Of a stretch of DNA of 33,353 nucleotides, positions 2,910-8,578 are shown in pieces. Source of the DNA: Deltaproteobacteria bacterium (GTDB taxonomy: Bacteria; Desulfobacterota; Desulfobulbia; Desulfobulbales; SURF-16); contig JAOZSN010000007.1 in the NCBI GenBank assembly GCA_029939635.1, positions 1-33,353 on the forward strand. The letters are read 5' to 3'. The notes beneath the pieces are model-generated. The model was not told where the DNA came from and ran no database searches. It was given only the letters and a program-made list of their open reading frames with translations. Within the stretch, counting starts at the first letter, position 1, and each line of letters starts with the position of its first letter. Made by a program: the position numbers and the translations under genes.

Positions 2910-3515
2910 CTAGACAAGTACCGCCGGTGAAATATTAGCAAGGGCCTGACGTCCAGCAGTATCAAGCATTGATTCAGCCAGATTATAGGGAACCTGGAGC
3001 ATGAGATGGAGTTCGAAGGTATCCTTGAAAAAATCCTCCAACAGCTCCTGGGCCTTTTGGTTAGTAGAAAAAAAGAGCAACGAGCTATCACTTAGATTCC
3101 AAATCAGATCATAGGTAGCAGGTACTGGTACAGCTTTTTTCATCAGCATGAGCTGCATATTCTCTTTGATCTCCAACTTCTGGTGGCGATTAAGCTTGGG
3201 AATTTGACGCTCTCGTTTAATGCGCTCCTCCTCCTTAAGGCAAAATTTCTTAAGCACCTTAGGCGACACCTTACGCTCATCCACCCGCATGGTCAGGCAG
3301 ACATAGTCCGCCACCCCATAGGAGGCATAGGCAAATTCGGCATCAAACATATTCATCACCGATACCCAGCCGATTGAAAACTCATCATAGGTGTCATCAA
3401 TATCTTTAAAGGCAAAGCGCGACACCTTATCAGCGACAAGATCCCAAAAATTAGCCGGAGGATCACCAAGCACTTGATAGCGCACAAAGGTGGCAGAAGC
3501 AGAAAGAAGGCCCAT
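2910..3515 (-). CDS. RdgC-like N-terminal-type protein
   Basis: 201 aa, MGLLSASATFVRYQVLGDPPANFWDLVADKVSRFAFKDIDDTYDEFSIGWVSV..., resembles RdgC-family N-terminal sequences. Confidence 0.6.
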   Translation of the reverse strand: MGLLSASATFVRYQVLGDPPANFWDLVADKVSRFAFKDIDDTYDEFSIGWVSVMNMFDAEFAYASYGVADYVCLTMRVDERKVSPKVLKKFCLKEEERIKRERQIPKLNRHQKLEIKENMQLMLMKKAVPVPATYDLIWNLSDSSLLFFSTNQKAQELLEDFFKDTFELHLMLQVPYNLAESMLDTAGRQALANISPAVLV

Positions 3516-3622: not shown

Positions 3623-3717
3623 AAAAAGGCGTGTAGGTGTGGCTGGCACTGCCGATAATAGTAAAGCTATATCGGCAGTGCCAGACGCGACCAGATACCG
3701 TGCCTACACGCCTTTTT
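3623..3717. repeat. Nested palindrome (15-bp outer and 15-bp inner arms), possible bidirectional terminator or mobile palindromic unit
   Basis: Outer arms aaaaaggcgtgtagg (3623-3637) / cctacacgccttttt (3703-3717). Inner arms ctggcactgccgata (3643-3657) / tatcggcagtgccag (3670-3684). All pairs perfect. Confidence 0.85.
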
Positions 3718-4658
3718 CAGCCGACGAGCCAGACTGCTACGTCTGTTACATTCGCCAATACCCGGTCGGAAACACCCCTGAAAATGCCCTTGTCTTTCTC
3801 TGGCCTACGGCCCATGACAATGGTGGAAAAGGCCTTTTCATGGGCCAGGTTGGCAATGGTCTGGGCGGGCTCAACACCCTTGGTATTTTCCAGACACCGG
3901 ATGCGATCACCACTGATGCCCGCCTCTTTCAGTACCTGTTCCGAGGCATGGAAATGAAAGAGACCATCATCATTGCCCCGCAGATGCTCATCACACCACT
4001 CTTTGCCCCATTTCTCGTGAAACTCTTCTCTAGGGGAAATATGGTCGGCAGCCAGCATGGCACCGGAATGAAACAAGGTGACCTCTGCGGTAGGGTTGTT
4101 CTGCAGCATAAAGCCGAGATGATCCACCGCAGCCAGCGAATATTGACTACAATCCACCGGTACCAGGAATTTATCACCCCCAGGTGCACCATTGACGATC
4201 CACAGGGGTAGACTATGATTCTTCTCCATGATCTCCGAGGAGATAGAGCCGGAAACAAACTTGAGGAGGGCAGGGATCTCTCTTTTACTGAGCAACAAGG
4301 CATCATACATCCCCTTCTGACCCATGGTTCTCAGGGTGGCAGAAGAGGTGCCAAAACCAAATTTACACTCCAACTCCAGTTGCTCCTCGCTGAAACCTGC
4401 TGCATAAAATTTGCGGGCAAGAGACTCCAAGTGGCGCTGCGCTGTGACTTTTTTCTGCACTGCCCCCTTGTCAGTCTTAGCCACTGACTCCAAATCGCCC
4501 AGCAAGGCCATAGAAGCCGAGGCCTTATGGAAGGGAATGATAGTAACCAGATGAAAAAGGATATCGTGCTGTTGTGCAAAAAGACCGGAAAGCAGATACT
4601 CACAACTCCAGTTATCAAGGCTGGAACCATTCAGGGCAACGAGAATTTTTTTCTGCAT
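3717..4658 (-). CDS. Universal stress protein, tandem UspA domains
   Basis: 313 aa. MQKKILVALNGSSLDNWSCEYLLSG... and second repeat GGDKFLVPVDCSQYSLAAVDHLGFML...TIVMGRRPEKDKGIFRGVSDRVLANV. Confidence 0.85.
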   Translation of the reverse strand: MQKKILVALNGSSLDNWSCEYLLSGLFAQQHDILFHLVTIIPFHKASASMALLGDLESVAKTDKGAVQKKVTAQRHLESLARKFYAAGFSEEQLELECKFGFGTSSATLRTMGQKGMYDALLLSKREIPALLKFVSGSISSEIMEKNHSLPLWIVNGAPGGDKFLVPVDCSQYSLAAVDHLGFMLQNNPTAEVTLFHSGAMLAADHISPREEFHEKWGKEWCDEHLRGNDDGLFHFHASEQVLKEAGISGDRIRCLENTKGVEPAQTIANLAHEKAFSTIVMGRRPEKDKGIFRGVSDRVLANVTDVAVWLVG

Positions 4659-4715: not shown

Positions 4716-6290
4716 TCATATGCGCCCTTCAATATATTTAATCATCTGGCTCATGGACATTTTCATGCTGGACGGACCAGAACGCACCAGAAAATCCTCG
4801 TTTTTGCCCACCACTAAGAACACAGGCCGACGTACTCGCTCACACTCAATGATCAAAAGCATCTTGCCCTCAAGCAGACAAATTTTGAGTTGAATGAATC
4901 GGACAAATTCCGGGCCGATATGATGGCTGATCAGGCTCTTAAAATGAAGGCGAACCTTATCCTCATTGGCAAAATTATCAGCACCAATGCCCATAATAGT
5001 GCCGTCATCCTCAACACCAATGAGTAAAATACCACCATCTGAATTCATAAAAGCCACCACCGCCTTGAGCCAGGCCAATTCAATCTCCTTGCCCTTTTTT
5101 CCTGTTTTCAGGTTGGTACGCATGGTGGATTTAAACTCCAGAGAAGCGCTTTCCCCGGCCTCAATAAGGCTACGCAACTCATTTTCCAGATTCTGGTTAC
5201 TGATGTTCTGCCGCGGTAGATCACGGAGCTGATAGCTGTATTTTGCCACCAGCCGATAGGCAAAGACAACACCGCCACCAATAACCAAAAGAGCAACCAG
5301 GCCCCACTGCAACCAACGCTGTTTCACATCAGCCATGATCTCTTTTTCAGGCACAATAACCACCACCCAGGAAGAGGCATCTGCTCCGTCCAGCGGAGAA
5401 AACCCGGCCCACCATGATTGACCGGCGCTGCTAAATTCCAGGGCTTGCTTCTCTCCACGCTCATCTGCCTGCCAAAGCTCCATGGCCCGGGTGACAGGCC
5501 CACTGCTCTGTCGCAACTGCGTGGCCTGATTATGGACAATAATTGAGCCGTCTCGCTCAATGAGAATGATATGACCGTTTTTACCCACCCCCAGACTATT
5601 CAAAAAATTCAGTAAATCTTCCTGTAATAGATCCAGGGCCAAAACCTGGTCTACCCCATCCTGGCTTGACCAGGAAATGGCAGCGGTGACACCGATCTTA
5701 CCGGCAGTGAAAAACATGTACGGCTCGGTCCAGAATATCTCATCTCTGCCTGCCACCGCCTCAGCAAACCAGGGCCGAGAGCGGGGATCATATTGCAAAT
5801 GTTCCTGCCAGCTTTTGTCCGCCTTACTTGTATCGCGCCACTGGCGCCACTGCGCCGTACCTCCTCCCTCATTCAGGGAAGTAAAACGCCTACTCTTCCA
5901 GGAGTCCTTCTCTCGATGCAAAAAAAATTCTCCACCATTGGAATCGGCCAGCATCACAGCAGATATATGGGGATAGGCCTGCAAGACAGGAACAAGCAGA
6001 CGCATCATGCCCTGTTCATCCAGGCTGGCAAACATTCCTGCTTCACCCCATTGCCGGCCAATCTGCAAGGTGGTCTCGATAGGATCAGTAAACTGCCTAA
6101 ACCTCTTTTTAACTATGGTGGTGGTGTCAGTGATGATGGTGGACGAAATGTCCCGCCGCATGGTCAGACCAAGGTAGGCACTGGTGGCAATAATGAGCAA
6201 GGTGGTGAGCAAAAGCACGCCTATAATATCACGCAATAAACGGCGCCTGATATTTTGCGGATAGTTTGGAAATAGGTGGGTGATATCCAT
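4716..6290 (-). CDS. Transmembrane Cache(PDC)-type sensor fused to a cytoplasmic AlbA_2/Schlafen-like domain
   Basis: 524 aa. N-terminal TM, extracytoplasmic region with ...DPRSRPWFAEAV...YMFFTAGKIGVTAAIS (Cache-like), second TM WGLVALLVIGGGVVFAYRL, then LIEAGESASLEFKST...AVVAFMNSDGGILLIGVEDDGTIMGI (AlbA_2 signature). Confidence 0.8.
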   Translation of the reverse strand: MDITHLFPNYPQNIRRRLLRDIIGVLLLTTLLIIATSAYLGLTMRRDISSTIITDTTTIVKKRFRQFTDPIETTLQIGRQWGEAGMFASLDEQGMMRLLVPVLQAYPHISAVMLADSNGGEFFLHREKDSWKSRRFTSLNEGGGTAQWRQWRDTSKADKSWQEHLQYDPRSRPWFAEAVAGRDEIFWTEPYMFFTAGKIGVTAAISWSSQDGVDQVLALDLLQEDLLNFLNSLGVGKNGHIILIERDGSIIVHNQATQLRQSSGPVTRAMELWQADERGEKQALEFSSAGQSWWAGFSPLDGADASSWVVVIVPEKEIMADVKQRWLQWGLVALLVIGGGVVFAYRLVAKYSYQLRDLPRQNISNQNLENELRSLIEAGESASLEFKSTMRTNLKTGKKGKEIELAWLKAVVAFMNSDGGILLIGVEDDGTIMGIGADNFANEDKVRLHFKSLISHHIGPEFVRFIQLKICLLEGKMLLIIECERVRRPVFLVVGKNEDFLVRSGPSSMKMSMSQMIKYIEGRI

Positions 6291-6293
6291 ACT

Positions 6294-7901
6294 CTATTGC
6301 TCTCCTTTCCCCAAAGAAGCACAGACATGATGACCATAGCCAGCTCCAGCCTCGGCATAAATATTATAGGCGGTGGATGCACCAGCAGCCAATAACTCGT
6401 TGAGCTCATCATCAAAAAGAGCGGTGGCGGTCACCTGGCCCTGGAAGCCAATTTGCTTCAACTCCTGCAGGGCAAACATGTTAGCGCGATGGTTGGGTAT
6501 GGCCAGCATCACCAGCTGCACGCCAGCAAGATTCACCTTATGCCAAAAATCAAAATCAGTGGCATCCCCCAATATTACCTGATGGCCTGCCTGTCTATGT
6601 GTATCAACTGTTGCCTGGTCAAAATCCAACCCCAGAACCCTATCACCATGTCGGGCAAATGCCGTATCATACGCCCCCATACCCACGCGGCCCATGCCAA
6701 AAATGAGGATGGCTGCCTGACCCACATCCACTGCCACCTCGTCAGGATGCTCTCCATTCCTCTCAAAACGAGCCAATTTCGCTGTGAAGCGATCATACAG
6801 GGCATTGGCCTGACTATTAAGAGGCGCCCCAAGAATAAAGGAAAAAGTCAAAGCCAGAGAGAGAATGACCAACCACTCTGGCCCCAACCAACCCTGTTTG
6901 CTGGAAATACCCACCACCAGCAGACCAAAGATGGAATAATTTGACAATACCAAGGAAGAGAGGAAGGCTGTTCTGGCCCGCAGCTTAAAGCGACACAGCA
7001 CGAGCATATAAAGAACAGATTTCACAGGTATGAATACCACCAAAGCCAAGGCAAGAAAGGCCTGGCTCCAGGCCAACTGGGCAAAGATGCCTATCTTCAT
7101 AAAAAAGGCGACTAAAAAAAGATCCTTAAAGCCATAGAGAGACTTAGACATTTCAGAGGCACGAGGGTGGCCGGAAACCAGAACACCAAAAACCAGGGCA
7201 CCAAGATCTGGTTTGAGCCCCACCAGGGTAAAACTGGTGGCACCAATAACTATGGAGACAAAAAAACCAGCCAGGATGAGTAACTCACCATGACCGCTGC
7301 GATCCATAATATAAAAGAAGAGGGGCCGCACACCTGCCAGCAGCAGCGGCAGAGCCAGGGCCCAGAGTGAAGGAAACTCGCCCTTGGAAAAAGTAATAAA
7401 GAGTACAGCCAGGATATCCTGCATGATGAGGATACCAATGGCAATGCGGCCATGCAGGGCACTCATCTCACCCTTCTCCTCCAGGGTCTTTACTGCAAAG
7501 ATGGTACTGGAAAAACTCAAAGCAAAGCCAAGCAGCAGGGCCTGGTTAAAATCGAGACCGGTGAGGGCGGCCAGGCCCAAGGTGGAACCAGCCAGGATGA
7601 GCAAACTATAAAAAATGACGCAGAAAAAGACATGGAGGGTGGTGCCAGCCCAGATCTCCGGTCGGGTCATACTCTTCAGATCCAGTTTAAGACCAATGGT
7701 AAAGAGCAACAAAATGATACCATAATCGGCCAGAACCTCCAGCTTTATGGTTCCTCCGGTAAGTCCCATAAAGTTGAGCACAAAACCGACAACTAAAAAA
7801 CCGATCATGGGCGGTAATTTAAGCAGCTTAAACACAAAGCCGCCGACAAAAGCAGCTCCCACCCAGATAATATTTATATACTCCGGTGCAAGGGTATCCA
7901 T
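6294..7901 (-). CDS. Kef-type cation/proton antiporter with TrkA-N (KTN) domain
   Basis: Start set at the ATG at 7901 (MDTLAPEYINII) preceded by AAGGAGGGA, rather than the longest ORF start 7973 that overlaps the upstream gene. Na+/H+ exchanger-like TMs plus AAILIFGMGRVGMGAYD...GLDFDQATVDTHRQAGHQVILGDATD. Confidence 0.9.
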   Translation of the reverse strand: MDTLAPEYINIIWVGAAFVGGFVFKLLKLPPMIGFLVVGFVLNFMGLTGGTIKLEVLADYGIILLLFTIGLKLDLKSMTRPEIWAGTTLHVFFCVIFYSLLILAGSTLGLAALTGLDFNQALLLGFALSFSSTIFAVKTLEEKGEMSALHGRIAIGILIMQDILAVLFITFSKGEFPSLWALALPLLLAGVRPLFFYIMDRSGHGELLILAGFFVSIVIGATSFTLVGLKPDLGALVFGVLVSGHPRASEMSKSLYGFKDLFLVAFFMKIGIFAQLAWSQAFLALALVVFIPVKSVLYMLVLCRFKLRARTAFLSSLVLSNYSIFGLLVVGISSKQGWLGPEWLVILSLALTFSFILGAPLNSQANALYDRFTAKLARFERNGEHPDEVAVDVGQAAILIFGMGRVGMGAYDTAFARHGDRVLGLDFDQATVDTHRQAGHQVILGDATDFDFWHKVNLAGVQLVMLAIPNHRANMFALQELKQIGFQGQVTATALFDDELNELLAAGASTAYNIYAEAGAGYGHHVCASLGKGEQ

Positions 7902-7912
7902 AGCTTCCCTCC

Positions 7913-8578
7913 TTAGAAGGTGTCTTCCTCTAAGTAGAGGGGGGTAAAATCTCGCAGTGGGCACGCCTGACAACGGGGATTTTTTTTACGACAAAACTCC
8001 TTACCCAGACAGACGATGAGGGCATGGTACTCATTATAGAGAGCTGTTTCCATGGGTAATGAGGAAGTCATAACCTCCTGTATTTCGTAGTAACTACTTT
8101 CTTCGCCTATCTGACCATGACGACTCAAAAAACGATGGGTATAGGTGTCCACCACAAAGACCGGTTTTTGGGCCGCATAAAGGATGATAGAGTCAGCTGT
8201 TTCCGGACCAATACCCTTGACCCCTAACAGGGTATGGCGCAAAGCATCTACATCTTGATCAAAAAACAGCTCAAGATCGCCCTCTGTTTCGTCATTAATA
8301 CATTGGAGCAAATTTTGCAGGCGGCTGGCCTTAAGATTATAATAGCCTGAAGGGCGGATCAGGGCAGCAAGCTGCTTTTGGGGAAGGGAAGCCAGGGCGG
8401 CAAAGGAGAGAAAATTTTCTGCCTTGAGATTATCTAAGGCCTTGGTGACATTGCCCCAGTTGGTATTCTGGGTCAAGACAGCCCCCACTAAAACCTCAAA
8501 GGGGCTGTCGGCCGGCCACCAATTCTGCCTCCCGAAATGGGCAAGCAGCACATCGTACATTTCCTGTAAGATGTTCAC
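7913..8578 (-). CDS. Endonuclease III-like HhH-GPD DNA glycosylase with C-terminal 4Fe-4S motif
   Basis: 221 aa. VLVGAVLTQNTNWGNV...LLGVKGIGPETADSIILYAAQKPVFVVDTYTHRFLSRHG...CRKKNPRCQACPL. Confidence 0.9.
   Translation of the reverse strand: MNILQEMYDVLLAHFGRQNWWPADSPFEVLVGAVLTQNTNWGNVTKALDNLKAENFLSFAALASLPQKQLAALIRPSGYYNLKASRLQNLLQCINDETEGDLELFFDQDVDALRHTLLGVKGIGPETADSIILYAAQKPVFVVDTYTHRFLSRHGQIGEESSYYEIQEVMTSSLPMETALYNEYHALIVCLGKEFCRKKNPRCQACPLRDFTPLYLEEDTF

Follow-up and report, generated by a model that had tools for sequence, protein, structure and literature searches.

IRE1 has a sensor outside the membrane, a transmembrane (TM) segment and an RNase inside, together with kinase and KEN domains. 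KefF and KefG, the ancillary proteins of Kef antiporters, are soluble and flavodoxin-like. Among Schlafen-type enzymes, SLFN13 has a tRNase core (PF04326) whose catalysis requires E205, E210, and D248 (PMC5862951). The single AlbA_2 domain of SAMD9 cuts tRNA, for which binding depends on K198 and catalysis on E196 (PMC12331169), and PUCH of C. elegans (TOFU-1, TOFU-2 and SLFL-3 or SLFL-4) is a Schlafen-domain RNase with a TM-helix membrane anchor (PMC10567574). Bacterial Schlafens are reported to be anti-phage effectors in work cited in PMC12839542. On the sensor side, the ligand residues of the dCache_1AA domain of PctA are Y121, R126, W128, Y144, and D173 (PMC10104139). The main text of a Cache-domain survey (PMC4822843) mentions neither AlbA nor AAA_4.

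The window analyzed here, a 33,353-nucleotide stretch of DNA, encodes a Cache-TM-AlbA_2 receptor that resembles each of these systems in part. With SLFN13 it shares the domain family and fold, and the E-x4-E and D triad is at aligned positions; however, SLFN13 is a soluble chain with two lobes, whereas in the receptor one such domain follows a TM helix at the C-terminal end. The AlbA_2 tRNase domains of SAMD9/SAMD9L (7ksp, 9o0d) are among the closest solved folds to its AlbA_2 domain, but SAMD9 is soluble, has SIR2 and NTPase modules and lacks the transmembrane sensor that the receptor has. PUCH also combines a Schlafen domain with a TM anchor, although it is a mitochondrial, three-protein assembly that has no sensor and makes piRNA. 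The PctA-type dCache_1 amino-acid chemoreceptors have the sensor fold and ligand residues in common with the receptor, yet their output is MCPsignal after HAMP, while that of the receptor is AlbA_2 without HAMP. IRE1 is alike in design but not homologous, and its kinase and KEN domains were not found in the receptor using Pfam. KefF/KefG and the receptor are both encoded beside a KefC-like antiporter but have no common fold. Both domains of the receptor are known; to us, it is their combination and context that are apparently new. The first-pass annotation knew of no described pathway with this architecture, and we likewise found no description of it in the literature searched, although work on bacterial Schlafens may contain a prior mention.

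Architecture and distribution of the receptor

The receptor gene (4716–6290, on the minus strand, which the first-pass annotation had not specified) is an ORF with an ATG start that encodes 524 aa and has Pfam matches and >60 full-length homologs. Hydropathy identified two TM segments, TM1 at residues 22–40 (6171–6227, minus) and TM2 at residues 326–344 (5259–5315, minus), which correspond to helices 12–83 and 315–356, respectively, in the AlphaFold2 model. That full-length model (mean pLDDT 78) runs from a long TM1 helix through a tandem Cache fold and an equally ordered, long TM2 helix to the AlbA_2 domain. Between the TM segments, on the extracytoplasmic side, is the periplasmic dCache_1 sensor (residues 50–313; 5352–6143, minus), which was matched by Pfam (E 2.9e-13, 50.4 bits vs. 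a curated cut-off of 45). Its assignment is supported by alignment to PctA, by the motif table and by Foldseek matches of the full-length model to tandem-Cache structures of amino-acid chemoreceptors (the PctA, PctC, Mlp24, and Tlp3 sensor domains). The SLFN_AlbA_2 output domain (residues 376–516; 4743–5165, minus) was assigned from a Pfam match to PF04326 at residues 380–511 (E 5.7e-19, 69.2 bits vs. a curated cut-off of 25.3), alignment to SLFN13 (5yd0), a domain model and Foldseek. The residues PQNIRRRLLRD precede TM1, consistent with an N-terminus on the inside. Basic residues are present both on the N side of TM1 and after TM2, and the AlbA_2 domain is therefore expected to be cytoplasmic.

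These results bear out the initial description of a membrane-anchored Cache sensor fused to AlbA_2, since the Pfam matches above cut-offs, the two TM segments, the AlphaFold2 model and the orthologs all agree. AlbA_2 had been placed directly after TM2; the order is correct, but the actual junction is a linker of ~30 residues from the end of TM2 (~344) to the start of AlbA_2 (376). No HAMP, kinase, cyclase, GGDEF or HTH domain was found in the receptor at E ≤ 1 (Pfam), and AlbA_2 occupies the slot usual for HAMP/kinase/GGDEF outputs. The receptor also differs in this respect from the ToxR/CadC-type membrane-bound transcription factors, which have an HTH DNA-binding domain. A chance fusion or misassembly is ruled out because full-length orthologs keep the same domain order and >40 independent genomes carry the fusion.

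The architecture was found by profile search in ~45 of the 258 genomes of the order, and copies also turn up in several more families of Desulfobacterota. Named relatives of the receptor, which is single-copy in its own genome, come from Desulfobulbaceae, Desulfocapsaceae and other Desulfobacterota MAGs. Ordinary AlbA_2 proteins of this phylum carry the domain at the N-terminus, and nearly all of them lack a TM segment. The C-terminal AlbA_2 subfamily of the receptor has three further settings, with other phyla surveyed through plasmid and phage records: behind GmrSD_N (L115, L118) or, on plasmids, DUF262; joined to a Methylase_S-like region or an N-6 methylase; and as part of small, Cache-less proteins that have two TM helices (L165, L168, L169). 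The claim that AlbA_2 domains are usually in soluble proteins has an exception in this second class, the small two-TM proteins, which occurs in several phyla. As part of the Cache-gated RNase reading developed below, we tentatively suggest, at somewhat less than even chances, that Cache-TM-AlbA_2 proteins are one part of a broader group of AlbA_2 proteins, anchored in the membrane and present in several phyla.

Several features of these relatives were recorded separately. The GmrSD_N-AlbA_2 fusions (L115:214–2481, L118:4372–6507) have partial PADLOC matches (HEC-05); in them a type IV restriction-like protein bears a Schlafen-type domain. The small TM-AlbA_2 proteins without Cache (L165:5761–6567, L168:5989–6924, L169:5992–6855; on plasmids, L204:2213–2974, L206:2105–3010, L207:2150–3118) come from Desulfobacterota, Bacteroidota, Proteobacteria, and Actinomycetota. 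They have two TM helices (three in Actinomyces) and their sole annotation, where there is any, is "ATP-binding protein." Those on plasmids are from Pontibacter, Sphingorhabdus, Methylomonas, and Actinomyces. The Sphingorhabdus gene (L205:2198–3007) is annotated as two ORFs, with a break in the EFK region that is a frameshift or sequencing error. In the protein of Pontibacter kalidii (L208:2219–2977) the EFK motif, and with it the second catalytic Glu, is seemingly lost, a possible pseudo-enzyme. Three of the plasmid genes (L204, L205, L208) adjoin RND efflux, heavy-metal P-type ATPase or CDF genes, which may be real or a plasmid bias. A link to metal exporters was set aside as the cases are few, metal genes are abundant on plasmids and the chromosomal two-TM copies are flanked by other genes.

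Predicted sensor pocket and output active site

Each of the PctA ligand residues has its counterpart in the receptor (Y167, R172, W174, Y191, and D220, by alignment to PctA), while the structural Y129 of PctA is F175. This dCache_1AA residue set is kept in 38 of 62 fusions, and its retention varies with the neighboring gene: 4/4 for copies linked to a CPA2 antiporter, 11/14 for those linked to a family-3 (amino-acid-type) solute-binding protein (SBP3) and 1/14 for those linked to NhaA. Because the set is kept in CPA2-linked copies and mostly lost in NhaA-linked ones, the ligand probably differs between branches; judging from these residues, it is probably an amino acid or close analog in the branch that includes the window copy, and a different ligand in the NhaA branch. 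The SBP3 gene is directly upstream of many fusion copies, which fits amino-acid sensing without proving it.

In the output domain, E380, E385, and D428 correspond to SLFN13 E205, E210, and D248 (phmmer alignment to 5yd0, whose chain numbering offset of 13 was counted by hand). All 63 of 63 fusions have this triad, and K387 is likewise present in every one. The E and K of the receptor's EFK motif look like SAMD9 E196 and K198. Across the fusions AlbA_2 is much better conserved than the sensor, with a mean pairwise identity of 62%, as opposed to 26% for dCache, 26% for TM2 and 22% for the linker, and every one of the 33 columns that are ≥97% identical is within AlbA_2. A fixed output under a diversifying sensor would fit an enzyme with a universal substrate.

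The AlbA_2 domain model, built from 34 relatives, has a pLDDT of 96. Its PDB matches at E ≤ 0.001 (Foldseek) are all AlbA_2/Schlafen-type structures: SAMD9, SLFN5, SLFN11–14 and two from bacteria, labeled DIP2311 and RecG-related. The nearest solved folds include the SAMD9 tRNase domain, SLFN11, SLFN13, and SLFN14. Where metazoan SLFN proteins have an N-terminal core with two lobes in one chain, the receptor holds a single AlbA_2 stretch (Pfam). The first-pass annotation had proposed a one-component transmembrane system with a nucleic-acid-binding or nucleolytic output. Sensor class, topology and catalytic-type residues argue for such a system, and we favor the nucleolytic reading over plain DNA binding because both the SLFN13 triad and a lysine (K387) resembling the tRNA-binding lysine of SAMD9 are invariant. 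Nuclease activity is unproven for many of the AlbA_2 proteins of bacteria in which these residues are present. The second Glu apparently missing in the distant two-TM relative L208 suggests that catalysis may be dispensable in some membrane-bound members.

Gene neighborhood

Directly upstream of the receptor gene, with a gap of 3 bp, is a gene for a CPA2 (KefC-like) cation/proton antiporter with TrkA_N (6294–7973, minus, likely start ATG at 7901; Na_H_Exchanger 5.8e-37 and TrkA_N 1.3e-16 in Pfam), a neighbor also found in L080, L075, and L077. The receptor has a strong ribosome-binding site, AAAGGAGAG, within the 3′ end of the CPA2 gene. Downstream in the same direction, after a 57 bp gap, is a double universal stress protein gene (3717–4658, minus; Pfam Usp). 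The gene order CPA2, receptor, double Usp, RdgC-like is kept in another genus (L080), and the wider surroundings in the window are housekeeping genes (GatB, ThiC, HSP90, Pst). The RdgC-like protein beside the operon (2910–3515, 201 aa), which is conserved at this position (75% in L080), is a partial match to, and shorter than, the ~300-residue RdgC profile. No RNA element in the locus matched Rfam, and promoter and terminator scans of it showed no clear excess vs. shuffles.

On the tree of fusions, CPA2 is found in both main clades, being upstream of the receptor in L075 and L077 of the other main clade and also near the L159 copy. NhaA, with its IxDDxGA motif intact, is found at three places, immediately upstream in a clade of 12 members and likewise at two positions apart from it (L113, L159); in three checked genomes of the 12-member clade the fusion-linked NhaA is the only NhaA. 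Single cases have the beta subunit of a Na+-pumping oxaloacetate decarboxylase (L111), a Na/Ca exchanger (L110) or MscS (L112; convergent in L005) as the neighbor. CPA2 or NhaA occurs within 1.5 kb at 19/65 fusion loci, vs. 0/40 dCache loci and 0/42 other AlbA_2 loci. The Fisher p for this enrichment is 9e-8 using a count of 18 and ignoring kinship between loci, and 2e-4 in a rough clade-level version with assumed counts (5/20); the NhaA reference was taken from a fusion locus, making the comparison partly post hoc, whereas the window CPA2 was a prior query. Many fusion copies have no antiporter neighbor and are found in SBP3, AAA, enolase or chaperonin contexts, and families f91, f56, and f23 are flanked by other genes. 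The antiporter link is recurrent and lineage-dependent, not universal. Ahead of SBP3- or NhaA-linked copies from different genera is a pair of genes for an ABC_trans_aux lipoprotein and DUF3124 (L096:3417–4540, L085:3927–5063; accompanied by MlaD in L078).

Electrophile stress, which the Kef neighbor implies and which was part of the initial proposal, is too narrow a setting, as the partner in other lineages is NhaA or another cation transporter. Electrophile/glutathione-gated Kef regulation was rejected as the general role for the same reason, with NhaA, the Na/Ca exchanger, the oxaloacetate decarboxylase beta subunit and MscS replacing CPA2.

Proposed mechanism and alternatives

We give about even chances to a one-component receptor of the inner membrane whose Schlafen-type (tRNA/rRNA) nuclease output is gated by ligand and connected with cation/pH or amino-acid stress. 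The periplasmic dCache domain, with its amino-acid-type pocket in the window copy, would dimerize and either bind a small molecule or read periplasmic conditions, and TM2 would relay its state straight to the cytoplasmic AlbA_2 domain without HAMP or a phosphorelay, the paired TM helices acting as the gate. Schlafen domains act in pairs or sets, as in the two-lobed active SLFN13 (PMC5862951) and the three-protein PUCH complex (PMC10567574). Because SLFN13 is two-lobed while the receptor has one domain per chain, dimerization of AlbA_2 must be assumed; a receptor dimer would provide the pair. In the active state, we infer, the paired domains would be a metal-dependent endoribonuclease acting on structured RNA, most likely tRNA or rRNA, whose cutting would lower or reshape translation, while the co-expressed cation/proton antiporters would bring ions or pH back into balance when that condition prevails. 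Since the receptor pairs with antiporters, the trigger may be a state that demands adjustment of ion/pH balance and translation together. A more specific proposal is that a Schlafen RNase in the cytoplasm is under the direct control of an extracytoplasmic Cache sensor and serves the homeostasis of ions, pH or amino acids, not antiviral defense; this is plausible, though we hold it with a little less than even confidence.

Alternatively, the receptor might be a membrane-tethered transcription regulator in the manner of ToxR or CadC, with AlbA_2 binding DNA so as to control the antiporter operon according to the state of the sensor. This would follow one-component logic, the gene sits in the operon it would control, and the annotation of the AlbA_2 structures of SAMD9 and SLFN5 is binding of DNA or DNA/RNA. 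We nevertheless consider it unlikely: an HTH or other sequence-specific DNA-binding domain is absent (Pfam; HTH none at E ≤ 1), binding needs no invariant acidic triad, and AlbA_2 is nearly fixed while the neighbors change, unlike a regulator tracking different promoters. The close spacing between the receptor gene and CPA2 or NhaA, which are a few bases apart, and the swapping of unrelated ion transporters at receptor loci could also mean that the receptor contacts and gates the antiporter itself, with AlbA_2 being a protein- or nucleotide-binding domain and not a nuclease. That reading is highly doubtful, as the partners are structurally unrelated and a near-invariant AlbA_2 surface could hardly suit all of them; furthermore, the transporter neighbor is missing at many copies and the carboxylate triad is retained.

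It is similarly improbable that the receptor is a membrane-bound defense effector, which would sense envelope damage or phage entry and cause abortive infection through an AlbA_2 RNase, the antiporter link being incidental. Bacterial Schlafens are reported to be anti-phage in work cited in PMC12839542, and GmrSD_N and R-M components are among the fusion partners of this AlbA_2 subfamily. However, the window receptor and its antiporter neighbor have no match to the defense models of PADLOC 2.0, the surroundings are the housekeeping genes listed above, the gene order is conserved across genera (window, L080) and the amino-acid pocket is intact.

The receptor, found in a group of sulfate-reducing-type bacteria, combines a small-molecule sensor on the outside with an inside domain like the RNA-cutting portion of the antiviral Schlafens of animals. 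Its frequent operon with a sodium or potassium/proton antiporter suggests a salt or nutrient stress sensor of an undescribed kind. With its invariant triad and separable sensor the receptor is testable by chimeras, and its recurrent association with Na+/H+ and K+/H+ antiporters provides a concrete phenotype to seek. A gated RNase, if that is what the output is, would be a new output type for the large class of Cache receptors, which otherwise have chemotaxis, kinase, cyclase or phosphatase modules, and would represent a non-immune role for Schlafen domains in bacteria, in which outside chemistry is linked directly to RNA turnover at the membrane without a phosphorelay.
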